From Desulfocicer vacuolatum DSM 3385 (GTDB lineage: Bacteria > Desulfobacterota > Desulfobacteria > Desulfobacterales > Desulfobacteraceae), in NCBI RefSeq assembly GCF_900176365.1, contig NZ_FWXY01000005.1:124001-188000 (forward strand): a DNA stretch of 64,000 nucleotides, written 5' to 3'. Under the pieces are notes generated by a model that saw only the letters and a list, made by a program, of their open reading frames with translations, ran no database searches and had not been told where the DNA came from. Position 1 is the stretch's first letter; each line of letters starts with the position of its first letter. Shown one piece after another: positions 46,390 to 64,000 of this stretch. A program made the position numbers and the translations under genes.

Positions 46390-46746
46390 ATGACTAAAAA
46401 AATACTTGTGGTGGATGATGATCCCACCATCGTAAAGTACCTGACCAATATTTTTAATGACAACGGCTATGAAACCTGTTCCGCCAATGAAGGTGGAGAG
46501 GCATTTGAAGTGATGAAACAGGAAAATCCGGACCTTATCACCCTGGATCTTGAAATGCCCAATGGAGAATGGGGGCCTAAATTTTTTCGCAGGCTGTCCA
46601 AACAGGAAAAATTCAAAGACATTCCCGTGATTGTTATCAGCGGGCTTGCCAGTCGTCACCTTTCCATTGACAAAGCCATTACCTGGCTTTCCAAACCCTT
46701 TGATCCTGAAAAACTGGTGGGTATTGTTAAAAACACCATTGGATAA
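46390..46746 (+). CDS. Single-domain response regulator
   Basis: 118-residue CheY-like receiver without an output domain. The acidic pocket VVDDDP, phospho-acceptor Asp53 (TLDLEMPN), a Ser in VISG, and Lys in LSKPFD are intact. GGGAGG precedes the ATG. It follows tmcA by 34 bases and precedes a heme-motif kinase, so it probably receives phosphate from one of the two neighbouring kinases or bridges them in a phosphorelay. Confidence 0.88.
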   Translation: MTKKILVVDDDPTIVKYLTNIFNDNGYETCSANEGGEAFEVMKQENPDLITLDLEMPNGEWGPKFFRRLSKQEKFKDIPVIVISGLASRHLSIDKAITWLSKPFDPEKLVGIVKNTIG

Positions 46747-46958
46747 AATGATATCATGTGCCCCGACGGTGAATGGCTCCGGTCCCAAAACCGTCGGAGG
46801 TACATAAACCTGTTTTTAAGGAACAAAGTTTGATGATTTCGTAAAAAGTCTTAATGTCCATTCTTAATGTTGTGGATAATAGATTCCAAGCCTGTGCATA
46901 ACGTCGCCGGGATTTCATGGGCCGAGCTTTTACAGGTTCATCAAATTTTGATGCTCCA

Positions 46959-49250
46959 ATGAAAAAAATAATCAGCCAAATACAGCACAGCCTTGTTTTT
47001 AAGCTTATTTTAATAATGGGGTGTATCTGTCTTGTGGCCATTGCCACCTGGGCCTTTTTCACCATCCGGTACCAGCGCAATAAATCCCTGGATGACAATA
47101 CTGATATTGCCGATCGTATCAGCAAAACAATCCGCCTGGGTACCCACTACTCAATGATGCTCAACTCCAGGGATGACATCAATCAGATCATTAAAAACAC
47201 CGCCACCCAAAAGGGCATTGAAAATGTCCGCATCACCAATAAAAGCGGCGAAATTAAATTTTCCAATATTCCCTCGGAGGTGGATCGCACCGAAGAGATG
47301 ACCTCCTGGACCTGCCAGGTGTGCCATCAAACATCCCCTCCCCTGGTGAAACTTTCCCTTGCCCAGCGCCGCCGCCTGTTTCAAACATCTGACGGTGAAC
47401 GTCAGCTGGGTATTATCACACCCATTTACAACGAGCCGGGCTGTTCGGAAAAGTGTCATTTTCACAACAGTGAAGATAAGGTATTGGGAGCCCTGGATGT
47501 GGTCATCTCCCTGAAAGACACCGATGCAGAAATCATCAAATATGAACAAAGTATTTTTCTGCTGGCTGTGGCCATCATCATTGTTCCCTCCCTGTGTATT
47601 TTTTTATTTGTATATAAATTTGTCATCCATCCCCTTGGTCTGCTCACCGAGGAGACCCGTCACATCACAGACAGAAACGGACGTCATCTGATAAAAACCG
47701 ATCCTCACAGTGAAATCGGGCAACTGGCCACGGCATTTCACACCATGCGCCGGCGTATCTTTGACAACCAAATGGAACTGACCAAACAGAAAAACGAATA
47801 TCAGACTTTGTTTGAAAATGTCCCCTGCCTCATCACGGTGCAGAATCGGGATTTTAAATTGATTAATTTTAACCGGGAATTTTACACCAAATATAACCCC
47901 AGTCCCGGAGATTATTGTTACCAGGCATATAAAGGCAGAAAAACCAAATGCGATAATTGCCCGGTGGAAAAAACCTTTGCCGATGGAAAGTCCCACTATT
48001 CCGAAGAACTGGGCCGGGGCCGGGACGGCACCATGGAGCACTGGATTGTCAGAACTTCCCCGGTGCGTGACACCCGGGGCAACATCGTGGCAGCCATGGA
48101 GATCAACCTGGATATCACCCAGCGCAAATTGTTGGAACAGCGGGCCGAAGCCTCTGAAAAAAAGTACCATGCCATATTTAACAATATTCCCAACCCGGTG
48201 TTTGTGCTGGATTATGATACCCTGAAAATTCTCAACTGCAATGAGAGTGTCAAACAGGTTTACGGGTACCCAGAAAAGGTGTTACTTGGCAAATCTTTTA
48301 TTACACTTTTTGCCCAACATGAGGATACCCCCCTGGAAGATCCCCAGACATTAATGGAGACCATTAAGAAAACCCGGATCATGAACAAAGCCTGGCATAA
48401 AAAAAATGATGATGTTATTATCCCCGTGGATATCTGGATTTCCCTGTCGGAATATCCCGGGCAAAAGGTGCTTCTGGTGACCACTTCGGATATCACCCAT
48501 CGCTTGGAAACCGAAGCGCAATTTAACCAAGCTGCCAAGCTTGCCACCTTGGGAGAGATGGCCACCGGGGTGGCCCATGAGTTAAACCAACCCCTTTCGG
48601 TGATTAAAACATCCTCCAGTTTTTGTCGATCCAAAATTGAAAAAGAAGAGTCCATTAAGCCGGATATTCTCCATCGTCTGCTTGTTAAAATCGATTCCAA
48701 TGTGGACCGGGCCTCCAGAATTATTACCCATATGCGGGATTTTTCCCGAAAATCCGACACCAACCTCCAGCCCGTGGAGGTCAATGGCATATTACGCAAT
48801 GCCTATGAAATATTCAGCCAGCAACTCAAGGTCCGGGGCATTGAGGTATCCTGGGATCTGGGAAAAGATCTGCCCAGTGTCATGGCCGATCCCGGTCGAT
48901 TGGAACAGGTGTTTATTAATTTACTCATCAATGCCCGGGATGCCATTGAAGAAAAAACAAAAATGGAATACCACGGACTCAACCGGCAAAAAGAGATATC
49001 CGTTAAAAGTTATAATTTTGTTAATCATCAGCTTATCATTGAGATTAAAGATACCGGCACCGGCATTCCCGACCAGGTGGCTGAAAAAATATTCCAGCCT
49101 TTTTTCACCACCAAGGAGGTGGGTAAGGGAACCGGTCTGGGGCTTTCCATCAGCTATGGTATCATCAAGGAGAGTAAGGGAACCATTAAAATCAAAGAGA
49201 CATCGCCGGAAGGGACATTGTTTCAGATTGTTCTGCCGGGTGTGGCATGA
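46959..49250 (+). CDS. Membrane histidine kinase with periplasmic heme-c type motifs
   Basis: 763 residues from ATG 46959 (an upstream ATG at 46917 is possible; neither has a strong ribosome binding site). A membrane helix (about 15-35), a periplasmic domain of about 175 residues, a second helix (about 205-227), HAMP, a PAS with CDNCP (Cys331, Cys334), a second PAS, HisKA with His540 ([10 protein letters not shown]) and an HATPase ([16 protein letters not shown]). The periplasmic domain holds a CQVCH heme-attachment motif (119-123) and a CSEKCH stretch with one extra residue (162-167). Covalent heme there would make it a redox or gas sensor. Placed downstream of tmc, it is a likely regulator of redox genes. 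Confidence 0.82.
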
Positions 49251-49258
49251 GTATAACA

Positions 49259-49296
49259 GGAGGTTAAAATGTTTGTTTTTTTTAGTTATAACCTCC
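49259..49296. repeat. Inverted repeat after the heme-motif kinase
   Basis: GGAGGTTA/TAACCTCC arms around a T-rich 22-base loop. Possibly a weak transcription stop. Confidence 0.3.
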
Positions 49297-49333
49297 AGCC
49301 ACAACAAATACTGAAGATAGAAAATGGCATTAT

Positions 49334-49401
49334 GCCGCCCCCCCGAGGGGGCAATGATGTAGACAGCTCAATTGGCCGGTTCCCATTGCCCTTCGGGGGG
49401 C
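49334..49401 (-). repeat. Palindromic repeat family 2, copy C
   Basis: Inverted, shortened copy: GC-rich arms (GCCGCCCCCCCGAGGGGGCAAT and the complement near 49386-49401) around TGTAGACAGCTCAATT, the complement of the family core. Lies between the two kinase genes. Confidence 0.7.
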
Positions 49402-49444
49402 TCTGTAGGAAATAAGCTTGGAGAATTGTTTAAAAAAGAGGATA

Positions 49445-51076
49445 ATGAATCCAATGAATCTAAATTCTGATAATAATATCACCGACCTGCCCCAACGGAT
49501 TCTGCTTGTGGATGATGAAGAAGATATCCGGGATGTCCTCACCATTGCCCTGGAAGATATGGGATACGATGTCACCACTGCTGAAAACGGCAAGGACGCA
49601 TTGGAACAATTTGTCGCAGCTGATTTCCCCATGGTGCTCACTGATATTAAAATGCCGGGCATGGACGGTATTGAGCTGTTGAAAAAAATCAAACAGATTT
49701 CTCCGGAAACTGAAATCATCATGATCACCGGCCATGGAGACATGGACCTTGCCATTGAAAGTTTTAGAAATGAGGCCGTGGAGTTCATCACCAAGCCGGT
49801 GGATGTCACCACCCTTGAGATTGCCATTTCCCGGGCAAAGAAAAAACAAAAAATCCGTCAGGGGCTGAAAGCCTACACAGAAAGCCTTGAATCCATGGTA
49901 TTGGAAAAATCCAATGCCCTTGCAAGCCACCCTGCCCGGGGGGATGATAAAAAAGAGATTCTTGAATCCATGGAAAATCTTCCCCTGATTGTTTTTGTGG
50001 TGGACCGGACATTTAAAATTAAAACCGGTAATGCCCTGTTTAAAAAGACCTTTGCAATTGGGAACAAAACCTTGAAAAGCACCGGTGCTGATCCTGAAAG
50101 CTGTGACGGGACTTCACAAATCAATGGAGAATTATTTGAAAATAATTCTGAACAATTTTGCCATCGGGTGTGTCGAAATAACGCCCTGCCCTGCCCCGAA
50201 TGCCCTGCCCTTGCCACCTTTCAAGATGGTGAATCCCATCAGATAGAGGTCAGTTACACCCTGGCCAATGAAGAACAATTGCCCTGCCTTGCCTGGGCCG
50301 CCCCCATTGCTGTGGATGGGGATGGAACCGTTTCTGAGGCAATTATCATGGCAACGGACATTCAAAAGGTGATGGACATTAAAGATCATCTCACCTCACT
50401 GGGATTGATGATCGGCTCGGTATCCCATGGGATTAAAGGGCTTCTCACCGGTCTTGACGGAGGGGTTTATCTTTTAAATTCAGCCCTGAAAAAAGAAGAC
50501 CAGGACCAGGCCCGGGAGGGACTGCAGATGGTGCAGCAGATGACCGCCAAAATCAAAAAAATGATTCTGGATATTCTGTTTTATGCAAAGGATAGGAAAC
50601 TTCAGAAAGAAAAGGTATCAGCAAAGAATTTTGCCGGGGATCTTTTAAATACCATGGATTCCCGGGCGAAAAACCTTTCCATTGAACTCAAGTCAAAATT
50701 GCCGGACCCGGATTTTAACTTCATGGCCGATGCCGGGGCCCTGGATTCTGCCCTTATTAATATATTGGACAATGCCCTTGATGCCTGTGTGACTGACGGC
50801 AAAAAAAATGAAAGCCCCAAAGAAAAATATTTTGTTGAATTATCGGTTTCCTGCACACCTTCAAAGCTAATATTTACCATCACAGACAATGGTATTGGAA
50901 TGGAAAACCAGGATATGGAAAAGGCCTTTTGCCTTTTTCATTCAGGCAAGGGAAAAGGCGGTACAGGATTGGGGCTTTATATTTCCAAGCATGTCATTGA
51001 TCAGCATGGAGGCACTATTAAAATAGATTCTGAAAAAAACAAAGGTACCACATTTACCGTGACTCTTCCCAAATGA
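49445..51076 (+). CDS. Receiver-PAS-histidine kinase hybrid
   Basis: Soluble protein of 543 residues. The N-terminal receiver has VDDEED, Asp67 (LTDIKMPG) and Lys in ITKPVD; a coiled linker leads to a PAS-like domain with a Cys-rich insert (FCHRVCRNNALPCPECPAL, about 238-256), then a divergent phospho-acceptor helix with His328 (IGSVSHGIKGLL) and an HATPase (DNALDA, DNGIGM, GKGGTGLGLY). ATG 49445 is preceded closely by GAGG; a TTG at 49418 with AGGA is an alternative. The Cys cluster resembles that in the PAS of the kinase upstream, suggesting a common cue or a metal site. Confidence 0.82.
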   Translation: MNPMNLNSDNNITDLPQRILLVDDEEDIRDVLTIALEDMGYDVTTAENGKDALEQFVAADFPMVLTDIKMPGMDGIELLKKIKQISPETEIIMITGHGDMDLAIESFRNEAVEFITKPVDVTTLEIAISRAKKKQKIRQGLKAYTESLESMVLEKSNALASHPARGDDKKEILESMENLPLIVFVVDRTFKIKTGNALFKKTFAIGNKTLKSTGADPESCDGTSQINGELFENNSEQFCHRVCRNNALPCPECPALATFQDGESHQIEVSYTLANEEQLPCLAWAAPIAVDGDGTVSEAIIMATDIQKVMDIKDHLTSLGLMIGSVSHGIKGLLTGLDGGVYLLNSALKKEDQDQAREGLQMVQQMTAKIKKMILDILFYAKDRKLQKEKVSAKNFAGDLLNTMDSRAKNLSIELKSKLPDPDFNFMADAGALDSALINILDNALDACVTDGKKNESPKEKYFVELSVSCTPSKLIFTITDNGIGMENQDMEKAFCLFHSGKGKGGTGLGLYISKHVIDQHGGTIKIDSEKNKGTTFTVTLPK

Positions 51077-51311: not shown

Positions 51312-52550
51312 TTAATTGATCTTTGCCCCTTTGATGTTTCGGTTGATGATCTGCTCTATTTTATTTTTACTTGTTTCCATCACATGGGCGATTTGGGCGT
51401 GATTCCGCCACTTTTTTACTGCAAGTAAAACCCGTTCCAGGCAGTGATTGATTTCGTTGGTTGATAACCCGAATTCCTTACCCAATCGAATGAAATCCCC
51501 TGATCCTGGTTGTTGCCCCTCCCCGGCCACTGTCATGGAATGCTCTCCCCCCGGCCCCGGGGAATAGGTTAAATCATAGGCCGGAGTCAGGGTCCATTCC
51601 CGGGATTCATTGATCATAAATGCAAAATTCTTAACGTGGTCATCTCTATTGTTGGAAAGCACATTAAAAATCATTTGGCGGAATCCCCGAAGCAGATCTT
51701 GATGATTTTTCGTCAGCACTTTAATGACCTTAAAGAACGCCTGGTAATCCATGGAGGGGATCCTATAATTAACATGGAGCATATTCCCCAGAGTATGAAC
51801 ATGGTACCTGCGGTTTACCTGCCTGTCAAATCGCTTTATCCCAAAAAATAATTCGCCTGTCTTTGTCCGAAAAAGACGGGTTTCCGGCATGATAATCCCA
51901 GCGTCCTTGGCCATCAACGAATATGCATATTCCACGGCACCGGCGTCGGGCAGATCATTTCCAGAGTTGAACTTGACAATCCAGTGCTGATATCCCACGG
52001 GCAGATCTTCCTCACCGGATATGATCTTTTCTCCACCTACACCCACAAGAACTTTGGGCCGGGCACCACCAGGGCTACCGCCTGCCCGCATGAGCTGGGG
52101 AAGCACTGTCTCACTTTGACCTTTTAAAATTTGTCGGGACTGTTCTGCGAGCAACTGAAGATCAAATGCGCTGGAAGAATTTTTTTCATGGGTCAGAGCA
52201 GGCTCGTAGGTGAGCGCTCCCATGGTGGCAGTGCCCAAAAAGGCCAGGCGATGGAGTATGGACACACCGGCCGCATCAATGCCCTGTTTTGTAAAAAAAC
52301 GATCCATGAGCATTAATCCCCACCCATCGGGCAGCGAATCATCAAACAAACCAAATAACGGTCCAAAATTTCGATCTGTATGTTCAAAAAGCCCTGGTTT
52401 TGGCGGCAATTTAAATGGGGATAACCACAGAGGATCCGCAAGAAAGGAAGAGTCATACTCAAAATAAACCTTATGTCCGGACACTGCCAATTGCCCAACA
52501 GGAAAAGTATCGTTTTTTCCCCTGCGATAAATTACATTGACTTTTTTCAA
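51312..52550 (-). CDS. hipA: HipA-type Ser/Thr kinase toxin
   Basis: 412 residues of the HipA family, which in E. coli phosphorylates glutamyl-tRNA synthetase and slows growth. The N-terminal subdomain (YRRGKNDTFPVGQLA...YDSSFL) is followed by the nucleotide loop GSPGGARPKVLVG and, in the C-lobe, the catalytic NNRDDHVKNFAF and metal-binding TPAYDLTYSPG motifs; all key residues appear intact. It starts with TTG, overlapping the hipB stop by four bases (TTGA). Targets here are unknown. Sits inside the duplicated hdrB end. Confidence 0.9.
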   Translation of the reverse strand: MKKVNVIYRRGKNDTFPVGQLAVSGHKVYFEYDSSFLADPLWLSPFKLPPKPGLFEHTDRNFGPLFGLFDDSLPDGWGLMLMDRFFTKQGIDAAGVSILHRLAFLGTATMGALTYEPALTHEKNSSSAFDLQLLAEQSRQILKGQSETVLPQLMRAGGSPGGARPKVLVGVGGEKIISGEEDLPVGYQHWIVKFNSGNDLPDAGAVEYAYSLMAKDAGIIMPETRLFRTKTGELFFGIKRFDRQVNRRYHVHTLGNMLHVNYRIPSMDYQAFFKVIKVLTKNHQDLLRGFRQMIFNVLSNNRDDHVKNFAFMINESREWTLTPAYDLTYSPGPGGEHSMTVAGEGQQPGSGDFIRLGKEFGLSTNEINHCLERVLLAVKKWRNHAQIAHVMETSKNKIEQIINRNIKGAKIN

Positions 52551-52846
52551 ATGGTTCCCCGCCTGGGCTTTTTCTGCTCAATTTGTTCGAGTTCTTTTAT
52601 GGAGTTTGGCACCGCAGGTTGGAGGATTGCCTGCATTTCGTCAAGCCTGTCCAAGGCAAAAACAAGCTTTAAAAAATTTTCCAGGGAAACTTTTCCCGTC
52701 TGCTCAAATCGCTTCAATGATGCCTCGGTCACATTGGAACGTATTGCCAATGTACTGCGTTTCCACCGTTTTTGCAGGCGCAGGGCTTTAAGCTTTTGGG
52801 CAAGCTCTTGGGATATTTCTTCTGGTGTATACAAAGAATAGAGCAT
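52547..52846 (-). CDS. hipB: HipB-type antitoxin, XRE-family DNA-binding protein
   Basis: 99 residues from ATG 52846 (or 102 from GTG 52855). A helix-turn-helix of Xre type spans about 15-65 (LAQKLKALRLQKRWKRSTLAIRSNVTEASLKRFE). HipB proteins bind HipA and repress the operon. The strong promoter and a palindrome overlapping its -35 element lie 50-75 bases upstream, fitting autoregulation. A C-terminal Lys/Arg-rich tail (EQKKPRRGTI) is present. Confidence 0.85.
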   Translation of the reverse strand: MLYSLYTPEEISQELAQKLKALRLQKRWKRSTLAIRSNVTEASLKRFEQTGKVSLENFLKLVFALDRLDEMQAILQPAVPNSIKELEQIEQKKPRRGTI

Positions 52847-52894
52847 AATTCTCACAAAAAATAATGGCTAATTTTTTATCAAATAAATGCTTTT

Positions 52895-53037: not shown

Positions 53038-53901
53038 TTACAACACTTCAAGAAAGGTATCCGCCACAGCAAGATTCTTATGAAGCATAACCGCTTCTTC
53101 AGAAAGCCCCATGGCAAGTCCAAGAAGCTGGGGCAGATACAAAACAGTGATGGAAAGATCTTCACTGGTTCCCCTGGCAACACTTTTCTGGAATCCCTCC
53201 AGATTCATCTGACACATGGGACACACAGTTACAATGGCATCGGCTCCCCTGGCATCCATCAAAATTTTCTGCACCAGCTTACCTGACACCTCCCGTTTGG
53301 TGTTCATGCCCGAAGCTCCGCAGCAGACGGCCGACGAATCCCAGGGAAAAACATCTGCACCGCAGGCCTCAATAAGGCCTGTCATGGTGACAGGTTCCTC
53401 CGGATCATCAAATCCGCCATAGGGACGAAGGCATTGACACCCGTAATAGGGGGCAATTTTAAGACCCTTCAAAGGATTCATCACTCCTTGTGCAATCCTT
53501 GCGGCACCGATATCATGGGCCAGAACATCCAGCAAGTGCCGAACCCGGCGGGTTCCCTTTATCTTTAAATCGTCCACGGCCAGGGCCTCATCAATGTTAT
53601 GGCTCAAATTTTCATCCTTGTCCCTTTCCACCATAACCTTTTTAAGATTAAGGTAACAGGCACTACAGGGCACCAGGATATCCCCGGCGTTTTTTATTTT
53701 TTCGGCCAGGGCAATGTTGCGGGCAGGCAGCACAAAGGAAAGCAGCTCACTCATGGGTTCAGCCGCAGTGGCACCACAGCAGTTCCAATCTTCAATATCA
53801 ATGAGTTCTTCGCCCAGTTCCGCCATAAGTGCCCGGGTGGCACCATCATATTCAATGGCAGATTCTTCAAGGGAACAACCCGGATAATAAATATATTTCA
53901 T
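53038..53901 (-). CDS. hdrB: HdrB-like heterodisulfide reductase subunit
   Basis: 287 residues with two CCG domains: YYPGCSLEESA, NCCGATAAEP, CSACYLNLKK, then YYGCQCLRPYG, VCCGASGMNTKR and VCPMCQMNL. In methanogen HdrB these Cys sets hold two unusual [4Fe-4S] clusters that reduce CoM-S-S-CoB; bacteria lack those thiols, so the physiological disulfide is unknown (DsrC is a candidate). GAGGAAA precedes the ATG. Last gene of the hdr operon. Its final 105 bases recur at 51175-51279. Confidence 0.9.
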   Translation of the reverse strand: MKYIYYPGCSLEESAIEYDGATRALMAELGEELIDIEDWNCCGATAAEPMSELLSFVLPARNIALAEKIKNAGDILVPCSACYLNLKKVMVERDKDENLSHNIDEALAVDDLKIKGTRRVRHLLDVLAHDIGAARIAQGVMNPLKGLKIAPYYGCQCLRPYGGFDDPEEPVTMTGLIEACGADVFPWDSSAVCCGASGMNTKREVSGKLVQKILMDARGADAIVTVCPMCQMNLEGFQKSVARGTSEDLSITVLYLPQLLGLAMGLSEEAVMLHKNLAVADTFLEVL

Positions 53902-53969: not shown

Positions 53970-54497
53970 TTAAGCTCTATCCTCAATTTCCCTTACTTTC
54001 TGGAACAAACGATCCAGGTTGGACCCATCCGCACGGGAGGGCAGCTGGATGGCCACCTTGTTTTTTTTCATGAGCTTTAAGCCGATACCGGTAAATTCCA
54101 GGGGCAGCAAAGGGTTTTTCATGGCCATGAAGTAAAGGGTCATGAACTCAGTTTCCCGGACCCTGCCATGGCGGCGGACACTTTCCATGAAACTGCCATA
54201 AAATGCGGTCCCTTTTTTATATCCAGGGGTTTTTGCCTTAAATGCCTGTTCCTTTAAAAGGGACATGGCCCGGGTCAGTGGCAACCCCCTGGGACACCTT
54301 AAAGTGCAGAAATAACAGGTGGAACAAAGGGCAAATGTATTGCTGTTAAAAATATCTTCGGTGCGGTCCATGAGCACCAGGCGCCACAGCTTCCGGGGGG
54401 GCATGTCCATGGCAAAGGCATTGGGGCAGGATGCCGTGCAAGTACCGCATTGCATGCAGGTACTGAGTAACTCCTTTATGTGGGTTGTGGTGATCAT
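53970..54497 (-). CDS. hdrC: HdrC-like iron-sulfur subunit
   Basis: 175 residues with two [4Fe-4S] motifs, CMQCGTCTASC (Cys14, 17, 20, 24) and CSTCYFCTLRC (Cys58, 61, 64, 68). HdrC passes electrons from HdrA to HdrB in the cytoplasm. AAGGAAC precedes ATG 54497. A 251-base insertion of repeat elements separates it from the upstream hdrA gene, unlike the 12-13 base gaps elsewhere in the operon. Confidence 0.9.
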   Translation of the reverse strand: MITTTHIKELLSTCMQCGTCTASCPNAFAMDMPPRKLWRLVLMDRTEDIFNSNTFALCSTCYFCTLRCPRGLPLTRAMSLLKEQAFKAKTPGYKKGTAFYGSFMESVRRHGRVRETEFMTLYFMAMKNPLLPLEFTGIGLKLMKKNKVAIQLPSRADGSNLDRLFQKVREIEDRA

Positions 54498-54748: not shown

Positions 54749-57700
54749 CTAAAAACCAATGGCTGCATCAATAATGTCAAGCATCTGTCGATCCTTAAAT
54801 CCATTTAAAAAAGATGCACTGCTGGGGCAGATGGAAGCACAGGCCCCGCATCCCTGGCACATGACAGGGTCCACCTCAACTACCATGCGCTCAGAATTAA
54901 GGGACCTTGCCCCATAGGGACAGGCCCCGATGCAAAGCTCACAAAGACTGCAAAGGCTGGTTTTTACACCGGCTGTAACCGTTGCCGCCATTAAATGCTC
55001 TTTATTTAATATGCGAAGGGCACGCACGGCAGAAGCCTCTGCCGAGGCCATACTTTCTTCCACATTACGGGGACCAAGGGCCATGCCACAACCAAAAATT
55101 CCCTCTTTAATGCTGTCCACCGGCCTGAACTTGTCATCTGCCTGATCAAAAAATCCATATTCATCAAGCTCCATATTCATCAGTTCAGCAGGAGCCTTGA
55201 CCCGGGAGGGAACAACACCGGTGGCCAGCACCAAACGCTGGGGTTCAATGGCAATGATTTGGTTTATAATGGGCTCAAAAACCTCCACCCTTACCCCATT
55301 GTCATTGGTGGAAACATCCGGTTTTTTATCCAATGTGTATTGAATAAAAATAATGCCTGCCTTTCTTGCCTCATTGAAAAAAGGCTCGGCAAAACCATGG
55401 GCCATCATATCCCGGTACAATACAAAGATATGCATGTCAGGATTTTGTTTTTTCACGGCAAGGGCATGTTTTAAAGCAGATGTGCAGCAGACACGGCTGC
55501 AATAGGCCTTGTGCTCGTCCCGGCAGTCCACACATTGAATCATCACCATGCAATCAACTTCTGCCAGGGGTTCACCGTCATTATCCAGGGATTTTTCAAA
55601 TTCTTTCAAGGTCATAATGGCAGGATGCTGCCCATATCCCATGGACCGGGTAGCGGCCTCCTTTCCTCCGGTGGCAATAATACTGACCCCATGTTCCACC
55701 ATGACGGCATCACCCTCTTCCGGCTCAATGGTGGACACAAAATGCCCCACATGGCCAAAGGTATCTGCAACAACAGCATTTGTGATGACCTCAATACCGG
55801 GATGTGCCCCAAAGGCCTGGGTGGTTTCTTCCAAAAGCTTTGGAAAATCAGTTCCCGTGATATTTTTTTTCAACCATTTAAGATTACCCCCAATATCTGA
55901 TGTTTTTTCCACCACCACCACATGGGTATTATTTTGCGCCAGGGCAAGGGCCGCTGTCATTCCGGCAATGCCTGCTCCCACCACCAGGGCGGTTTTTTTA
56001 ACTTCCCTTGGAACAGTGATGTCCGGAGTGCGATGACGAATATCAGAAAGTGCCATGTCCAGACTGGAGGTTGCCTCTTTAACTTCTTTTTTAAAAATAT
56101 CCACCACATCAAAATAATGGGGATGCAGGGACATTTTTTGGGACAGATCTTTAATTTTTTTTGCAAAAAGATGAGGCAGACAGGCCCCCACCACCACCCT
56201 GTTTACCTTAAGATCACCTGTCTTTGATACAAAATCATCCCACCCTTCCCGGGTGCACAGATTTTTCGCTGCAATGCAATGGGACACATGGGGCAATGTT
56301 TCAAAATGGGCTTTCATCTCTTTAACTGCAGCTTCATTGTCTTCTGCCCCGCATTGGCATAACACCAGGGCCGTTGAGGGCAATTCCATGGAAACATCCC
56401 TGAAGGAAACAGGATTATCCAAAGTATCATCCAAAGCTACCTCCGCCACAGGAGAAATTGTTTTCTCCAACAGACTCAAGGCCCTTAAACTGGCTGAAGA
56501 GGCATGGATAAGGGTATCATGGATGTCCATGGGACCTGCTGCACTGCCCCCCACAAAAACCCCCTGTCCGGGTACCGGGGGAAACTCCATGGCAGGAAAC
56601 CCATGGTCATTTAGTTTGATATTTCCCATTTCACAAAGCCGGGACATGTCCTGCCGAGGTCTGACCCCCACGGAAAGAACCACCATGTCAAAGAGTTCAT
56701 CGGTTTTCTCTGTGAACATGTCTGCCACAAAAATACGCAGCTTGCCAAGGGCATCATCCCATCGGACAGAATGGGGCCTGGCCCTTTTCAAGATCACCTG
56801 GTGATCTTGAAGTGCCCTGGTTTTATAGGCTTCATAGGTCTTGCCAAAACAGCGCATATCCATGTAATAAATTACAGTTTCAATGGAGTGATTGGATTTT
56901 TCCCGGGTGAGCACGGCTTCTTTTAAGGCATGCATGCAGCAGATGGAAGAGCAATAGGGGACATCACTCTCCAGGGTGCGTGATCCCACACATTGAATCC
57001 AGGCAATTCTTTCCGCCACCTTGCCGTTGGAGGGTCGCAAAAGCCGGCCGTCCGTGGGACCTGTGCCGCTTATCAGGCGTTCAAATTCCCGGGCCGTGAC
57101 CACATCGGGGTAAACTCCGTAACCATAGGTGTTTTTCCCTGTGGATGGATCATAAAAATCCGTGCCGCAGGTCAGAATCACCGTGGCAAATTCCATAAAA
57201 TTTTGAGACATCCCAAGGGGTTTGTTTTTTTTGTAGAGCTTGTCCACCATCCCCACAACATTATCCGGCTCAAAGGGTTTTACAATGTATTCAAGGGCTC
57301 CCCTGGTAAGGGTTTCCACTGCGGTTTCCACCGTGGCATAGGCCGTCATCATGATCACCTTAAGATCCGGATGACTTTCTTTTACCTGTTTTAATACCTC
57401 AGTGCCGTCCATCTGCCCCATTTTAATGTCCAGGAACATCAGATCATAGGAATTTTCTTCCACCTTTTCCAGAGCTGCTGCACCGGAATCAGCCATGTCA
57501 ACGCTATACCCTTCAAACTCAAACCATTCTTTCATGGAATCCCTGACAATGAGTTCATCATCCACCACCAGAATACGAAAATTCTTCCGGGGATCTTCAG
57601 GAAGGGAAATGGCACCCACCGGGCAGACAGGTTCACAGGCCCCGCAAAGGGTGCAGGCATCCATATCAATGGTATAAATATTGGGAAGGGCATGGGGAAG

Positions 57701-58147
57701 CGGCAGATGGGCAGCCTTAAGGATTCCCATGTTCATATTGAATTTATTGGGAATATCCACAGGACAAACAGAAGCACAGGCCCCGCATCCATTGCATTTT
57801 TCAGGATCAACGGCCGTTATCTGCCTGTCCAGACGGGCCGTGTAATTGCCTGCCTCTCCTTCAAGATCTGCAAGGGTGGTGGACAGCATGATATCAATGT
57901 TTTCATGGAACAATCCCCGCCTTAAACAGAACTGGGCAGATTGATCCCGATCCACCAGGGGCAGCATCCGGCACATGCCGCAACCGTCGGTGGGAAATTG
58001 ATAATCCAGCCGGGATAAAATCCCTCCCATGTGGGTTGCGGCATCTATCAATGTGACATGGTGGCCAGCTTCAGCCAGATCAAGTGCCGAGCGGATACCG
58101 GCAATACCGGCCCCTACCACCAGAGCGTTTCCCTGTTTCTGGGTCAT
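54749..58147 (-). CDS. Double HdrA-like flavoprotein with internal receiver domain
   Basis: 1132 residues. The first HdrA-like part has FAD motif VGAGIAG (11-17), the Cys-containing DGCGMCRML and two ferredoxin motifs (CNGCGACASVC, CTLCGACEPVC, 118-175). A complete CheY-like receiver follows at about 189-312: acidic pair Asp196-197, phospho-acceptor Asp240 (FLDIKM), Thr268 and Lys290 (VKPFE). The HdrA fold then resumes (WIQCVGSR, YMDMRCFGK). A second HdrA-like part starts at about 717 with VGAGIAG and ends with two ferredoxin motifs (CSLCELCIGAC, CQGCGACASIC). Such a protein could carry two flavins for electron bifurcation, with phosphorylation altering it; both points are inference. AGGAGG precedes its ATG, 12 bases after the frhB-type gene. 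Confidence 0.88.
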   Translation of the reverse strand: MTQKQGNALVVGAGIAGIRSALDLAEAGHHVTLIDAATHMGGILSRLDYQFPTDGCGMCRMLPLVDRDQSAQFCLRRGLFHENIDIMLSTTLADLEGEAGNYTARLDRQITAVDPEKCNGCGACASVCPVDIPNKFNMNMGILKAAHLPLPHALPNIYTIDMDACTLCGACEPVCPVGAISLPEDPRKNFRILVVDDELIVRDSMKEWFEFEGYSVDMADSGAAALEKVEENSYDLMFLDIKMGQMDGTEVLKQVKESHPDLKVIMMTAYATVETAVETLTRGALEYIVKPFEPDNVVGMVDKLYKKNKPLGMSQNFMEFATVILTCGTDFYDPSTGKNTYGYGVYPDVVTAREFERLISGTGPTDGRLLRPSNGKVAERIAWIQCVGSRTLESDVPYCSSICCMHALKEAVLTREKSNHSIETVIYYMDMRCFGKTYEAYKTRALQDHQVILKRARPHSVRWDDALGKLRIFVADMFTEKTDELFDMVVLSVGVRPRQDMSRLCEMGNIKLNDHGFPAMEFPPVPGQGVFVGGSAAGPMDIHDTLIHASSASLRALSLLEKTISPVAEVALDDTLDNPVSFRDVSMELPSTALVLCQCGAEDNEAAVKEMKAHFETLPHVSHCIAAKNLCTREGWDDFVSKTGDLKVNRVVVGACLPHLFAKKIKDLSQKMSLHPHYFDVVDIFKKEVKEATSSLDMALSDIRHRTPDITVPREVKKTALVVGAGIAGMTAALALAQNNTHVVVVEKTSDIGGNLKWLKKNITGTDFPKLLEETTQAFGAHPGIEVITNAVVADTFGHVGHFVSTIEPEEGDAVMVEHGVSIIATGGKEAATRSMGYGQHPAIMTLKEFEKSLDNDGEPLAEVDCMVMIQCVDCRDEHKAYCSRVCCTSALKHALAVKKQNPDMHIFVLYRDMMAHGFAEPFFNEARKAGIIFIQYTLDKKPDVSTNDNGVRVEVFEPIINQIIAIEPQRLVLATGVVPSRVKAPAELMNMELDEYGFFDQADDKFRPVDSIKEGIFGCGMALGPRNVEESMASAEASAVRALRILNKEHLMAATVTAGVKTSLCSLCELCIGACPYGARSLNSERMVVEVDPVMCQGCGACASICPSSASFLNGFKDRQMLDIIDAAIGF

Positions 58148-58159
58148 ACCTTACCTCCT

Positions 58160-59290
58160 TTACGAAATCCCGGTGATATCTTGGAATTCATTTTCCATGA
58201 AAACAGACAAAGGCGGGGCCTCATCCACATCTTTACCGGGAATATAGGAAAATCCCTTCTGGGCCTTTTCTCCCACCAGTTTAAAAAGCTGGGCCAGGGG
58301 AATATCATTGGGGCAGGCATTGGAACACTGGCCGCATCCCACGCAGGAAAGCCCCATGTGAATCATGCGGGTGATGTGAAAAAACATGGTATCCGTGGGC
58401 ATTTTAAGCCCTCCTTTGGCCCTGGCCCATCCCTGGTATTGAAAGGGCTCATAATCCACCACATCGGTGTTAAATACACATTCTTTGCAAAAGCAAACCG
58501 GGCAGGCCACCCGGCAATTATAGCAATTAATGCAGTTTGACAGGTATTGACCAAGATCCGGCAGGGTTCCTGTCTGGGCTTCCAGCTTCTGGAACACTTG
58601 TTTTTCATGGGATTTTCGAGCCGAAATAACCTGGCTTTTATCCTTATTATCTTCCCCGGCCTCAATGGTTTCCAATGTCATTGCTTCCAGGATTTTTGCA
58701 CCTTTTTCGCTTGTTCCCGTAAGGGTAATTCCCTTGTTTCCGGGATGAAAAAGCCCAAGGGTTATATCAGCAGTTTCAGGAAAGGGCCGGGTACAGATGG
58801 TGCAGGCCGTTGCAATGCTGTCATCCATGGTATCAGAAAGATTGGAACCAAGACGTTTATCCAGAAAATCCCGGGTGAATTTTTCTTTTCCATCCATGGC
58901 CTTTTCCCTGAAATCACGGTTGGAAAAGGCCCCTGCACAATCTGAAGAAATAATAATCAGATTATCCCAGTTGGCCTGTTTGATTTTCACAAGTTCCACA
59001 AAGGCCCTGACTTCACAGGGTCGTAAAAAAGCAGCCATGGGTTCCCCTGAGCTTTTTCGGGTAAGCTTGGAAACCAGTTTGGCGCTGTTCATGGGAAAGG
59101 CCGGAGAAAAGGGGTCTGCCTGATCCAGCAGATCCGGATCTGTCACCAGGGAAGGCATGACAGTATTGGTATTTTCCGATCTCAGTGGAACAAGCAAAGC
59201 CCTGTCTTCTTGGGTTTTTAAAAAGGCCTTTAGAAAGGTTCGTACCGACCCAAGATGTGTGGATTTTTCTATTTTATAAATGGGGTCCAT
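58160..59290 (-). CDS. FrhB/FdhB-type iron-sulfur subunit of the Hdr complex
   Basis: 376 residues. The central RPCEVRAFVELVK...IIISSDCAG region is typical of the F420-hydrogenase beta / formate dehydrogenase beta family, and the C-terminus holds ferredoxin-like motifs CINCYNCRVACPVCFC and CVGCGQCSNAC. In related complexes this subunit carries FAD and handles NAD(P)H, F420H2 or formate-derived electrons. The exact donor is not evident. GGGAGAAG precedes its ATG; 13 bases from mvhD, 12 bases from the next hdrA. Confidence 0.82.
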   Translation of the reverse strand: MDPIYKIEKSTHLGSVRTFLKAFLKTQEDRALLVPLRSENTNTVMPSLVTDPDLLDQADPFSPAFPMNSAKLVSKLTRKSSGEPMAAFLRPCEVRAFVELVKIKQANWDNLIIISSDCAGAFSNRDFREKAMDGKEKFTRDFLDKRLGSNLSDTMDDSIATACTICTRPFPETADITLGLFHPGNKGITLTGTSEKGAKILEAMTLETIEAGEDNKDKSQVISARKSHEKQVFQKLEAQTGTLPDLGQYLSNCINCYNCRVACPVCFCKECVFNTDVVDYEPFQYQGWARAKGGLKMPTDTMFFHITRMIHMGLSCVGCGQCSNACPNDIPLAQLFKLVGEKAQKGFSYIPGKDVDEAPPLSVFMENEFQDITGIS

Positions 59291-59303: not shown

Positions 59304-59726
59304 TTATATTACCTGTTTTAAATCTGTGTGAAGCGGCCCTTCGGCCTTTATTTCCCTGACCATGGCATCAATGGTTTCGGCAAATTCAATGCCGTCACTT
59401 GCGCCGATCCAGGTAAGACGAAGCCGTTTTTTATTAATGCCGAAATTTCCCAGAACACTGTGGAGCAGTTTTATACGTCGCCTTGCCTTGTAATTACCGT
59501 TGATATAGTGGCAGTCTCCGGGATGGCAACCGGATACCAGGACAGCATCGGCCCCCTGAAGAAAGGCCTTTAAAACATACTTGGGGTCCACCATACCGGT
59601 GCACATAACCTTGATTAATCGTACATTTTCCGGATATTTTTTCCGGGAGGTGCCGGCAAGATCCGCTGCCGTGTAAGTGCACCAGTTGCAGACAAACGCG
59701 ATGATTGTGGGTTCGAAATTTTCCAT
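59304..59726 (-). CDS. mvhD: MvhD-like [2Fe-2S] hydrogenase delta subunit homologue
   Basis: 140 residues from ATG 59726 (AAGGAG site). Conserved Cys at 13, 16, 42, 67 and 72 in FVCNWCTYTAADLAG, VMCTGMVDP and SGCHPGDCHY bind the [2Fe-2S] cluster through which electrons enter HdrA in methanogens. No hydrogenase large or small subunit is nearby, so the donor here is presumably the FrhB-type subunit or the NAD(P)H module of the first HdrA. Confidence 0.9.
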   Translation of the reverse strand: MENFEPTIIAFVCNWCTYTAADLAGTSRKKYPENVRLIKVMCTGMVDPKYVLKAFLQGADAVLVSGCHPGDCHYINGNYKARRRIKLLHSVLGNFGINKKRLRLTWIGASDGIEFAETIDAMVREIKAEGPLHTDLKQVI

Positions 59727-59739
59727 GAAACACTCCTTC

Positions 59740-62700
59740 CTATATTCCAATGGCATGGATGGCATCCATGACCCCGTTGAGTTCACTGAACAATTGTTTT
59801 TCATTAAAATGACGCACCTGGGCAGCTCCGCTGGGACAAAACCCCGAGCAGGAACCGCACCCCTTGCAAAGGGCCTCATTTACCACGGAAATTCTGCGAT
59901 TTTCGTCAAAACTTATGGCAGTGTAAGGACAAAGACCAATGCAGGTCTTGCACCCGGCACAAAGTTCCTCATCAATGTGGGACACGGTGGAGGGAATTTC
60001 CACCTCCCCCCGGGCCGCAAGCTGTAAGGATTTTGCTGCGGCCCCCGAGGCCTGGGCCACGGCATCGGGGATATCCTTGGGACCCTGGCAGGCTCCTGCA
60101 ATAAATACCCCGTCCGTTGCAGTATTCAAGGGGCCGAGTTTTGGATGTTCTTCCAGGAAAAAACCGTCGGCTCCCTGATTGATACCCAATGTGCGGCCAA
60201 TGTCCCTGGCATCCTTGCGGGCCTCCATGGCAGTGCATAAAATAACCATGTCCACCCGGGTTTTAATGACCTCTCCCAGCAGGGTGTCTTCACTGATTAC
60301 CAGGAGTTTTTCACCATGGTCCTGGGTATTTTCTCCATTTTCACCACCGGGTTGATCCTCATCCAAAGGAGCCCGGGTGATGGATGCCACCTTACCCCGG
60401 ATAAACCGGGTGCCCTCTTCCTGGCATTGAATGTAAAATTCTTCATACCCCTTTCCAAAGCATCGCATGTCAATGTAATAATTATAAACAATGGCATCGT
60501 GGCCTGCTTTTTCATGGATAAGATGTCCGTATTTCAGGGCATACATGCAGCATACCCGGGAACAATAGGTGTGATAATTAATATCCCGGCTGCCGATACA
60601 GTGTAAAATGGCAACACTTTTGGGGGTCCTGGTCAGTTCTCCCTTACTATCCCGGATGAGAATCTGTCCCCCGGTGGGGCCGGTGGCATTGCTGAGCCGT
60701 TCAAATTCAAGATTGGTGAACACATTGGGAAATTTACCATACCCATAGGGCTTCATGGGGGTGGGGTCCAGGGCGTCAAACCCTGTGGCAGTAATAATGC
60801 TGCCCACCTGTATCTCCACCGGTTCATCCTGATCCCGGTGGTTTATGGCTTCCGGTTTGCAGGCACTGACGCACTGCATGCATTCACAGCAACCACCGCA
60901 GTTGATGCAGCGCTGGGCTTCAATACGGGCACTGACCTCATCCAAACCCAGATCCACCTCTTCAAAATTGGCCACCCGGGAACCGGATGCCGTTAAAACC
61001 GGTTTGCGGCGGGGCATGATGGTGGGATTTTTGGGAAGATCAGACCACACAGGGTCAGGTTCCGGGTCAAATATGCCGGGAAAATTCTCTGCCATGGTCA
61101 TGTGAATTTTCTTTTTTATAATGTCCGGGGATTCATCTGCCGAGTTTTTAAAACGGGTATCAATGGCACACACCACCCGGTGACCGGCGGCCACTGCTTC
61201 CACCACGGTGGCAGGCCCTGTGACCGCGTCTCCTGCGGCATACACCCCGGGAACAGAGGTTTCCAGGGTTTCCGGATCCACAGTCATGGTTCCCCGTACT
61301 GTTAATTCAATGGGGCACTCACTGTCCTGCCACAGGCTGTCCACCCGCTGGCCAATGGCCGGAATCACCATGTCGCAATGAATGGTAAATTCTGAATCTG
61401 CAATGGGCACAGGTCGTCTGCGACCGCTCCCGTCGGCAGGCCCCAGTTTATTTTTTATGCACTTAATGCCTGTCACCCTGCCCTCTTCTTCGCAAATGGC
61501 CATGGGTGTTGTGAGATGTACAAACCAGATCCCTTCATCTTCTGCGCCAATAATTTCTTCTTCTTCGGCGGGCATCTGGGCCTTGCTCCGTCGATACACC
61601 ACGGTGACGGCATTGGCACCGGAACGAATGGCCACCCGGGCCGCATCCATGGCCACATTACCCCCGCCAATGACCACCACATGACCGGAAACAGGCATTT
61701 CTCCCTTTAAATTGATTTTTTTAAGAAAAGATACAGCATCCACCACCCCATGGACCGTTTCATTTTCAATGTTCATGCCCATGGGCAACTGGGCACCGAT
61801 GCCCAAAAATATCGCTTTAAATCCCTGTTCTTTCAGGGATGAAAGGGTGAAATCGCGCCCCAGACGCTGTTTGGTTTTAAGGGTGATTCCTGTGGATAAA
61901 ATATGATCAATCTCCCGGTCCAGGATCTCCGGGGGCAGACGATAATCGGGAATACCCGTGCGCAGCATGCCGCCGGGTTTATCCATGGCCTCAAAAATGG
62001 TCACCGGATATCCCTTTTGCCTTAAATAATAGGCCACGGTGAGCCCGGCAGGGCCAGAACCCACAACGGCAACGGTTTCTTTTTTTTCAGGAACCTTTGG
62101 CAGCACAATTTTACCCAAATCACCATGGTCGGCAGCCACGCGCTTTAAGTTACGAATGGAGATGGGAGCATCAATCAATGCCCTTCTACAGGCAGTTTCA
62201 CAGGGATGGGGGCAAACTCTTCCAAGAACACCGGGCAGGGGCAGACGTTCCATGATAATGGACAGGGCTTCCTGGTATTTGCCCTGTTTCACCATTTGAA
62301 CATACCCCTGGATATTGGTACCGGCAGGACAAGAGGTGCGACAGGGGGGCGTGGATTTCTTATCAATGGCAAAAGTAATGGGAACGGCCTGGGGAAAGGC
62401 CCGGTATATGGCTGTTCGATTCTGGAGTCCCACATCCCATTCACTGGGAAGTTCCACCGGACAGACTGTGGTGCACTCACCGCACCCGGTGCATTTTGAA
62501 TTAACATACCGGGCCTTTTTGCGCACGGTCACCGTGTAATTGCCAATATATCCGGACACATTTTCCACCACTGCATTGGACAATAAATTAATGTGATCGT
62601 TCTGGGCCGTTTCCACCATTTTAGGGGTACCGATGCAGGCCGCGCAATCCAGGGTGGGAAAGGTTTTATCAAACTGGAGCATGTGACCGCCAATGGTGGT

Positions 62701-63219
62701 ATCTTTTTCCACAAGCCAGGCAGTGAGGCCGGAATTGCCAATATCAATGGCCGCCTGCATGCCTGCAATGCCCCCGCCCACCACCATGATATCCGGATGA
62801 ATGGCCACCTTTCTCTGGGCCAGGGACTGATGAAAGTTCACCCGGGCCAGGGCCGCTGCTGCCAGGGTTTTTGCCTTTTTGGTGGCACTGTCCCTGTCAT
62901 CGGTGACCCAGGAGACCTGCTCCCTCACCGAGGCCATTTGAAATTGATAGGGATTAAGGCCGGATCGGGATAAAACACTTTGAAATGTTTTTTCATGGAG
63001 ACGGGGGGAACAGGATGCCACCACCACCCGGTTGAGCTTGTAATCCCGGATATCCTTTTCTATGAGCTCCTGACCGGGATCGGAACACATGAATTTGTAG
63101 TCCCTGGATATCACCACGTTTTTAATGGTTTTGGCATAGGCTGCCACCTCTTCCACGCGGACCATACCGGCAATGTTGATGCCGCAGTGACAGACATAAA
63201 ATCCTATTCTGATATTCAT
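59740..63219 (-). CDS. hdrA: HdrA with inserted GltD/NfnB-like NAD(P)H module
   Basis: 1159 residues. The N-terminal HdrA part has YVCHCGINIAG, the FAD site VGGGIAG (147-153), DCAACIGTPKM and a ferredoxin motif CTGCGECTTVC. At about 290 a module of about 410 residues begins: PPCRTSCPAGTNIQGY, CPHPCETACRR, a FAD site VVGSGPAGLTVAYYLR and an NAD(P)-binding VVIGGGNVAMDAARVA, the architecture of glutamate synthase small subunit or NfnB. HdrA sequence then resumes (CINCGGCCECMQCVSAC, HCIGSRD, YIDMRCFGK), ending with CAGCKTCIGLC and CKGCGSCSGFC. It likely oxidises or reduces NAD(P)H within the Hdr complex. GGGAGA precedes its ATG; first gene of the operon. Confidence 0.88.
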   Translation of the reverse strand: MNIRIGFYVCHCGINIAGMVRVEEVAAYAKTIKNVVISRDYKFMCSDPGQELIEKDIRDYKLNRVVVASCSPRLHEKTFQSVLSRSGLNPYQFQMASVREQVSWVTDDRDSATKKAKTLAAAALARVNFHQSLAQRKVAIHPDIMVVGGGIAGMQAAIDIGNSGLTAWLVEKDTTIGGHMLQFDKTFPTLDCAACIGTPKMVETAQNDHINLLSNAVVENVSGYIGNYTVTVRKKARYVNSKCTGCGECTTVCPVELPSEWDVGLQNRTAIYRAFPQAVPITFAIDKKSTPPCRTSCPAGTNIQGYVQMVKQGKYQEALSIIMERLPLPGVLGRVCPHPCETACRRALIDAPISIRNLKRVAADHGDLGKIVLPKVPEKKETVAVVGSGPAGLTVAYYLRQKGYPVTIFEAMDKPGGMLRTGIPDYRLPPEILDREIDHILSTGITLKTKQRLGRDFTLSSLKEQGFKAIFLGIGAQLPMGMNIENETVHGVVDAVSFLKKINLKGEMPVSGHVVVIGGGNVAMDAARVAIRSGANAVTVVYRRSKAQMPAEEEEIIGAEDEGIWFVHLTTPMAICEEEGRVTGIKCIKNKLGPADGSGRRRPVPIADSEFTIHCDMVIPAIGQRVDSLWQDSECPIELTVRGTMTVDPETLETSVPGVYAAGDAVTGPATVVEAVAAGHRVVCAIDTRFKNSADESPDIIKKKIHMTMAENFPGIFDPEPDPVWSDLPKNPTIMPRRKPVLTASGSRVANFEEVDLGLDEVSARIEAQRCINCGGCCECMQCVSACKPEAINHRDQDEPVEIQVGSIITATGFDALDPTPMKPYGYGKFPNVFTNLEFERLSNATGPTGGQILIRDSKGELTRTPKSVAILHCIGSRDINYHTYCSRVCCMYALKYGHLIHEKAGHDAIVYNYYIDMRCFGKGYEEFYIQCQEEGTRFIRGKVASITRAPLDEDQPGGENGENTQDHGEKLLVISEDTLLGEVIKTRVDMVILCTAMEARKDARDIGRTLGINQGADGFFLEEHPKLGPLNTATDGVFIAGACQGPKDIPDAVAQASGAAAKSLQLAARGEVEIPSTVSHIDEELCAGCKTCIGLCPYTAISFDENRRISVVNEALCKGCGSCSGFCPSGAAQVRHFNEKQLFSELNGVMDAIHAIGI

Positions 63220-63495: not shown

Positions 63496-63900
63496 TTAAG
63501 TTATTTCGGAGTCAATCCTTAACATGAGCTGATTTATCTGCTCTATGAGTTCGTCTTCCTGCAAGGGTTTTTCAAGAAATGGAATTTCCGCAGGAGAGAT
63601 GTAAAGTCCTGTTCCAAGTTGCAATTTATGACGGAAAAAAAGAACTTTTAACGGAATGGCAGAGATGAACAGTATGGGTGTTTTTTTTGCGTGGGTTAAC
63701 AGCGTCTGCATGCCCTGGTGGGGCAACATGGCATCCAGAATAAGCATATCCGGTTCCAGGGCCTGAAATTTATCAATACCTTCCTGCTCATCGACTGCCA
63801 GGGTCACCTCAAACTGCCTGTTGGTCAACACTGTTTGAAGAAATCCGCGAATGTCTGCTTCTTGATCCACAACAAGTATCTTAGTTAATTTTTGATCCAT
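63496..63900 (-). CDS. Lone receiver-domain protein
   Basis: 134 residues, receiver only. VVDQEAD replaces one acidic residue of the usual DD pair with Gln, the phospho-acceptor is in LILDAMLP, the Ser of FISA and the Lys of FLEKPL are conserved. A segment between (LKVLFFRHKLQLGTGLYISPAEIP) is longer than in CheY. ATG 63900 follows GGCGGAG closely. It precedes the hdr operon in the same direction and may share regulation with it. Confidence 0.78.
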   Translation of the reverse strand: MDQKLTKILVVDQEADIRGFLQTVLTNRQFEVTLAVDEQEGIDKFQALEPDMLILDAMLPHQGMQTLLTHAKKTPILFISAIPLKVLFFRHKLQLGTGLYISPAEIPFLEKPLQEDELIEQINQLMLRIDSEIT

Positions 63901-64000
63901 GATCTCCGCCAATTAAATATTAACAGTTAGATGCAACATTCATATTGATGGTATGTTTTTTTAATGAATGCAATTTAGGAGCCACTTTTTTTCTACATGG

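Follow-up and report, generated by a model that had tools for sequence, protein, structure and literature searches.

Locus and architecture of the protein

The window described here is the whole analysed stretch of 64,000 nucleotides from Desulfocicer vacuolatum DSM 3385, within which an operon on the minus strand encodes HdrA-REC, a relative of the electron-transfer flavoprotein HdrA from bacteria of the sulfate-reducing type, carrying a receiver domain (REC) inside its chain. The protein is encoded by an open reading frame with an ATG start, zero internal stops and 1132 residues, and is built as follows:

54749..58147, minus strand: HdrA-REC, a double HdrA with embedded receiver (1132-residue open reading frame, Pfam matches and alignment to the HdrA structure 5odc)
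57602..57814, minus strand: inserted two-cluster ferredoxin domain, residues ~112-182, immediately N-terminal of the receiver (Fer4 matches; 5odc alignment up to 5odc residue 313)
57224..57580, minus strand: receiver domain, residues ~190-308, with D196, D197, D240, T268 and K290 (PF00072; (beta-alpha)5 fold in the model; conserved residues)
56459..57196, minus strand: return of the first flavin adenine dinucleotide (FAD)/thioredoxin-reductase-like domain, residues ~318-563 (5odc alignment from 5odc residue 318; NF040770 match at 318-563)
54752..56398, minus strand: second half, with HdrA N-terminal domain (~584-713), second FAD domain and C-terminal ferredoxin (~1055-1132) (Pfam and 5odc alignment)

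The first-pass annotation had described a double HdrA of 1132 residues, which is right, although Pfam and the 5odc alignment reveal two asymmetric halves. The first half consists of the FAD domain, the inserted ferredoxin, the receiver and the return of the FAD domain, and the second of the HdrA N-terminal domain, a FAD domain and the C-terminal ferredoxin; in Pfam terms, Fer4 and FAD/Rossmann matches flank the receiver and a second FAD/Fer4 set follows C-terminal of it. A profile of 56 relatives, the positions of which lie within a few residues of the numbering of the window protein, aligns with 5odc in four stretches (E 1.3e-166). These join 5odc 151-313 (FAD and inserted ferredoxin) to profile positions 13-185, 318-511 (FAD return) to 315-509, 2-180 (N-terminal domain) to 584-762 and 501-647 (the end, including the C-terminal ferredoxin) to 991-1135. 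By homology the FAD, inserted ferredoxin and N- and C-terminal iron-sulfur domains of HdrA are all matched, and the best fold matches of the predicted structure are HdrA chains. The label of HdrA relative is used because no curated NCBIfam HdrA cut-off is passed (612.5 bits against 1100 for NF040770, with NF041778 and NF041891 also below), and the protein would accordingly be placed outside those models. No claim of heterodisulfide reduction is made for its complex; electron bifurcation would be expected from the homology to HdrA and from the HdrB, HdrC and MvhD neighbours.

The receiver itself matches Pfam Response_reg (PF00072) at residues 192-301 with E 2.5e-31 and 108.6 bits against a cut-off of 30.2. 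It is located where a short linker of HdrA leads from the inserted ferredoxin back into the FAD domain, and ~130 residues including the receiver there stand in place of the ~5-residue linker of the three solved HdrA chains that were aligned. The insertion is exact, such that 5odc is aligned to residue 313 before the receiver and again from 318 after it. In an AlphaFold2 model built from 56 aligned sequences (mean pLDDT 86.0, pTM 0.84) strands and helices alternate five times over residues 191-308 to give an ordinary (beta-alpha)5 receiver, the ten-residue blocks of which have pLDDT values of 70-92; D196/197 follow strand 1, D240 ends strand 3, T268 ends strand 4 and K290 follows strand 5. The intact, in-frame CheY-like receiver that had been proposed, with Asp196-197, Asp240, Thr268 and Lys290, was therefore found with every residue in place, the domain search putting PF00072 far over its cut-off with HdrA parts on both sides and the structure prediction giving a confidently folded domain rather than a disordered one. 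A decayed or pseudo-receiver in the window protein is excluded, since all key residues are kept, and this description holds instead for a family of relatives considered below. An assembly or frame artefact is likewise excluded, as dozens of genomes share the in-frame arrangement, a recurrence far beyond chance.

Response regulators with an enzymatic output are familiar, for example CheB and PleD, in which a receiver is fused to an enzyme. In regulators of this type, however, the receiver sits at an end, whereas in HdrA-REC it lies inside a multi-cluster redox enzyme. The methanogen HdrA chains (PDB 5odc, 7bkb, 8rvu/8rvy) share the FAD domain, the inserted two-cluster ferredoxin and the N- and C-terminal iron-sulfur domains, and the differences are that HdrA-REC fuses two unequal halves in one chain and has a receiver in place of the linker. 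Around hdrA-REC the minus strand of the window holds these genes, the family counts of which refer to 81 neighbourhoods (80 loci plus the window) with many contigs ending early:

53970..54497, minus strand: HdrC-like protein, downstream in the operon (TIGR03290 68 bits, under the cut-off of 160; family in 48/81 neighbourhoods)
53038..53901, minus strand: HdrB-like protein with two CCG domains (PF02754; TIGR03288 173.8 bits, under the cut-off of 345; family in 47/81)
58160..59290, minus strand: FdhB/FrhB-like iron-sulfur protein, 12 bp upstream of hdrA-REC (PF04432 E 4.2e-8; family in 64/81)
59304..59879, minus strand: MvhD/FlpD, true start probably internal (PF02662 E 4.4e-52 at residues 59-179; family in 43/81)
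59740..63219, minus strand: HdrL, an HdrA with an inserted GltD-like NAD(P)H module (NF040770 and PRK12771 matches; family in 54/81)
63496..63912, minus strand: single-domain receiver upstream of hdrL (PF00072 E 5.8e-11; family in 26/81)

HdrL is a second HdrA into which a foreign module has been built, in or next to the inserted ferredoxin, and here the module is GltD-like rather than a receiver. By eye, the module sits inside the inserted ferredoxin just before its second cluster, ~25 residues earlier than the receiver does, and HdrA thus seems to tolerate inserts in its ferredoxin stretch. In the solo receiver at 63496-63912 the acidic pair DD is replaced by DQ; the family member at L039 has DD. 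Elsewhere, in an Eth-SRB2 genome (L050, 1-3095), the receiver-HdrA operon adjoins a second HdrA-HdrB-HdrC cluster that runs on the opposite strand and is cut by the end of the locus. Other HdrA copies of the window genome (G000:C27, C29, C37, C54, C67) have an in-frame TGA within the match, which perhaps encodes selenocysteine, an amino acid reported for Hdr proteins of D. autotrophicum in PMC2702500.

Among the nearest described systems is the HdrA4/HdrL locus (VIII) in Desulfobacterium autotrophicum HRM2 which, in the part of PMC2702500 available, has an hdrL-hdrA tandem with fdhB, hdrB and hdrC as here, and is likely to be the same operon type. The figure key of that part gives a CheY-like regulator, a response regulator and a histidine kinase as separate genes, and its account of HdrA4, compared here by description, does not mention a receiver. 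A receiver in HdrA is equally unmentioned in the available portions of PMC5109826, PMC10553843, PMC5296606 and PMC11887813. No description of such a protein came up in searches over openly licensed PMC papers, most of them judged from their listings, so an earlier report may exist.

Conservation of the receiver and its loss

The spread of HdrA-REC was followed in 146 genomes from the order of the window organism, 53 of which have a match at E <= 1e-200, a threshold that favours receiver-bearing copies: in G085, also from this order, the relative found at 3e-174 has no receiver. The receiver could be read in 52 of the 53, G003 being left out as its receiver region lies off the contig, and all 52 carry D-D, D, T and K-P at the active-site positions. 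The same six residues are present in all 81 loci of a named-species scan (the best 80 of 336 relatives, plus the window), a set that shares assemblies with the order sample and is not independent of it, the scan patterns of which were moreover derived from receiver-bearing proteins. Among the strains concerned are Desulfosarcina widdelii, D. alkanivorans and Desulfospira joergensenii. A phylum sample of 395 genomes, 117 of them with a match at 1e-150, adds five further copies that were read, all with an intact active site (L118-L122). Across the 81 loci the receiver and the N-terminal FAD/ferredoxin part both have a mean pairwise identity of 0.68, and the remainder of the protein 0.52, such that the receiver equals the FAD/ferredoxin part in conservation. 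The first-pass annotation had argued that selection keeps the receiver phosphorylatable, and had regarded common loss of Asp240 or the acidic pair among homologues as evidence to the contrary. Selection of this kind is strongly supported by the residue counts, and decayed receivers were found in just one family, in three genomes.

In this family, f112 (L166 = G184, L167 = G412, L168 = G520), Asp240 is kept, the acidic pair has become TP or DP, the Thr is changed to Ala and, in two of the three, the Lys to His. The domain of G412 scores just 22.3 bits in Pfam, under the 30.2 cut-off. It looks like a pseudo-receiver within HdrA, in the sense in which the term is employed in PMC12632262; the f112 relatives resemble the proteins described there and the window receiver, with all key residues present, differs from them. 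The f112 proteins bear directly on the idea that the receiver serves chiefly for docking or spacing, with phosphorylation secondary or absent, since G184, G412 and G520 have retained the domain without its full active site. On the other side, the active site is unbroken outside f112 in each of the order-sample copies and the five phylum copies, and a mainly structural role is judged unlikely.

The nearest insert-free relatives (L131, L132, L133, L135) have the same flanks joined by 8 residues. In a quick tree of 48 proteins made with the receiver columns removed, the 29 receiver-bearing proteins (two decayed ones included) group together, but receiver-less L135 adjoins the window protein (SH-aLRT 98). 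This placement would mean either one gain and one loss of the receiver, or a long-branch error, as L135 and the window protein are both long-branched.

The candidate partner kinase

Between the HdrA operon and the tmc genes the window encodes a histidine kinase, listed here with genes around it:

46917..49250, plus strand: candidate partner kinase, non-hybrid, with a periplasmic sensor carrying C-x2-CH (133) and C-x3-CH (176), then HAMP, two PAS, HisKA and HATPase domains (Pfam; orthologous core near 34/49 loci)
49418..51076, plus strand: REC ... HATPase receiver-kinase protein, companion of the kinase (Pfam)
46390..46746, plus strand: solo receiver beside tmc, an alternative target of the kinase (PF00072 E 2.2e-22; relatives beside tmc in other genomes)
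44620-45954: TmcB (NCBIfam score 830.7 against a cut-off of 735), the remaining tmc names in the window being taken from gene order

Between hdrB and the kinase genes lies what we take to be a HipA/HipB-like pair (51312-52855), candidate names for genes that were matched in just the window and L110 among the 81 neighbourhoods.

The window kinase (HisKA E 1.7e-10, HATPase E 1.1e-19) belongs to a recurrent family of ~770 residues with a sensor, HAMP, PAS domains, HisKA and HATPase. The sensor motifs, C-x2-CH near 119 and C-x3/4-CH near 162, occur in 25 of 25 aligned sensors, a set picked for carrying them, and would be putative heme-c attachment sites; the Pfam Mcp40H-20_sensor model gives 22.2 on the window kinase, below its cut-off of 27. 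From these motifs the sensor may be supposed to bind heme and to read the periplasmic redox state.

The association between this kinase and the receiver was assessed with a profile of the kinase core in the 10 kb downstream of those 49 loci for which 9 kb or more of downstream sequence was available. The scores are bimodal, falling either at >=350 bits or at <=242. An orthologous kinase of the high group is found within 10 kb downstream in 34 of the 49 receiver loci, the window included, and near none of 26 control HdrA loci, a contrast favoured by a profile built from receiver loci and by the fact that 20 of the 26 controls are paralogues just ~33-37% identical. These 20, taken from this and other genomes, were all verified as receiver-free, and the other controls are three decayed-receiver loci and three receiver-less close relatives. 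As regards gene position, then, the histidine kinase proposed in the first-pass annotation as a partner is supported. The kinase is on the same strand as hdrA in 31 of the 49 loci, starts within 2.2 kb of hdrA in 30 and has the sensor in 29, and in some of these loci just hdrC-hdrB lie between the two. Some kinase-core match (E 1e-10) lies downstream in 42/49 loci. A chance neighbour is unlikely to account for this frequency, as the genome holds 102 HATPase matches in 5.04 Mb, or one per ~49 kb. The domain insertion is real, strongly conserved and has an associated kinase.

The high-group kinases, at any position, number 41, all with the His box HELNQPL and none with a receiver of its own; an outside partner is therefore needed. 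In 34 of the 41 loci the kinase lies within the same-strand run of hdrA (short opposite open reading frames ignored), and at L101, L103 and L105 HdrA carries the sole receiver of the run, L101 and L105 being sisters in the tree and L103 absent from it. The simplest pair is that of the L105-type operon, whose kinase is free of a membrane sensor and in which HdrA is again the single receiver. The best reading of the locus is that the activity of HdrA is probably controlled by phosphorylation of its built-in receiver via the co-encoded kinase.

Over whole genomes the sensor kinase (E <= 1e-40) is present in 47/53 order-sample genomes with HdrA-REC against 28/93 without it (odds ratio 18, Fisher p 3e-12, shared ancestry not corrected), one of the 28, G093, having a short HdrA-REC-like frame beside the kinase. 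The two genes are within 10 kb of each other in 34/53 genomes. At least one exception, L069, retains the kinase core while lacking the sensor, in the form of a 503-residue PAS kinase that begins 45 bp after hdrA. A follow-up of 23 chosen genomes at 1e-20 purposely included the six exceptions at 1e-40; here no sensor match was found in two of three decayed-receiver genomes (G412, G520) or in one of five receiver-less ones (G085). The absence in G412 and G520 proves little because intact-receiver genomes are also found without a sensor match, and for the same reason joint loss of receiver and kinase was dropped as an argument.

Beyond the advantage built into the comparison of loci, a number of observations weigh against control of HdrA by this kinase. 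Within the window the kinase is encoded on the opposite strand, 6.9 kb from hdrA and between the HdrA operon and tmc, and in 15/49 loci no orthologous kinase is nearby. The sensor was not found at 1e-40 in 6/53 HdrA-REC genomes of the order sample, nor at 1e-20 in 6 of the 15 intact-receiver genomes of the follow-up (G059, G072, G118, G131, G178, G186), among which the G118, G131 and G186 assemblies are just 67-76% complete. Conversely, G184, with its decayed receiver, has the sensor kinase ~219 kb away, four of the five receiver-less genomes have a weaker sensor relative (E 1e-45 to 1e-75), and in G202, which has no receiver, a distant relative of the sensor (E 2.7e-69) lies 2.4 kb from hdrA. 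Co-variation between receiver and kinase beyond shared ancestry is not significant for the DHp part (partial r 0.11, p 0.08), the values being 0.05 (p 0.29) for the kinase core and 0.18 (p 0.05) for the sensor. The link between HdrA-REC and the sensor kinase is thus a tendency, not a rule. In 33 of the 41 loci the kinase is followed directly by a gene for a receiver-bearing protein, a 380-residue REC-HATPase protein in the two that were scanned, and among 20 loci read in other genomes the same kinase family is found beside tmc and hmc-like genes.

The receiver gene that so often follows the kinase raises the prospect of HdrA as a phosphate sink or relay, where the kinase would really act through the REC-HATPase protein or a transcription factor. 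HdrA, or the quantity of it, would then adjust the signalling, such that the enzyme reports to the kinase and not vice versa. An NtrC-type family in 34/81 neighbourhoods (one member scanned) would suit such a role, as would the occurrence of the kinase and REC-HATPase pair away from HdrA. A sink or relay would not, though, require that the receiver be built into the enzyme at one precise joint, and in three loci the same-strand run has no other receiver; this reading is judged rather improbable.

Away from HdrA, the kinase and its REC-HATPase companion are found next to tmc and a solo receiver (e.g. L151, L153) or next to hmc-like genes (e.g. L150, L152, L161, L162). In the window (46390-51076) and at L147, L151, L153 and L159 the CH-motif kinase adjoins tmc and a conserved solo receiver (~56-60% identity). 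The latter arrangement hints that the Tmc complex may also be under receiver control, and the kinase module seems to serve several redox complexes, with the receiver having become part of the enzyme in the case of HdrA. It could also be argued from these loci that the kinase serves tmc/hmc and the solo receivers, being near hdrA through a shared redox island, and that another kinase or acetyl phosphate phosphorylates the HdrA receiver. Further possible partners are numerous among the HATPase proteins of the genome, and some intact-receiver genomes have no detected sensor kinase. Set against this are the orthologous kinases on the strand of hdrA, mostly within 2.2 kb and at times with hdrC-hdrB alone between, and a different phosphoryl donor is judged very unlikely.

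A possible phospho-switch in electron transfer

Flavin-based electron bifurcation is the route to low-potential ferredoxin in many anaerobes. It is known to be regulated mostly by redox potential, the supply of substrate, conformational gating and the expression of genes. Control of HdrA through its receiver would act at the point where electrons leave the enzyme. In the methanogen Hdr, according to PMC12350162, electrons are anticipated to leave through the inserted ferredoxin-like domain, which is also where polyferredoxins dock, and the transfer of electrons seems to be gated by the movement of an arm in which MvhD/FdhB-type subunits join the N- and C-terminal domains of HdrA. The receiver, lying directly after the inserted ferredoxin, could plausibly move or mask that domain when phosphorylated.

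The mechanism proposed begins with a cytoplasmic HdrABC-type electron-transfer complex, presumably HdrL-MvhD-FdhB-HdrA-HdrC-HdrB, the HdrA subunit of which would have gained a functional receiver at the joint of the inserted ferredoxin and FAD domains. The co-encoded non-hybrid PAS histidine kinase, often with a periplasmic sensor that has two cytochrome-c-like motifs, would phosphorylate Asp240. The resulting change on the output face of the receiver would shift or re-dock the adjacent ferredoxin domain, and this shift would raise or lower the exit of electrons through ferredoxin, the branch that is expected to be gated. A more tentative extension, doubtful as it stands, is a transmembrane redox feedback in which a heme-bearing sensor kinase would read the electron pressure of the periplasmic cytochrome pool and, by phosphorylating the receiver of HdrA, directly gate electron exit from the cytoplasmic bifurcating complex without transcription, with Tmc maybe tuned in parallel via the solo receiver.

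The receiver-less and decayed-receiver relatives offer natural controls for the question of a phospho-switch. The HdrA-REC/kinase pair is compact and is found in many Desulfobacterota records, and, if the proposed control is true, the receiver in HdrA would represent direct two-component control of a bifurcating enzyme.

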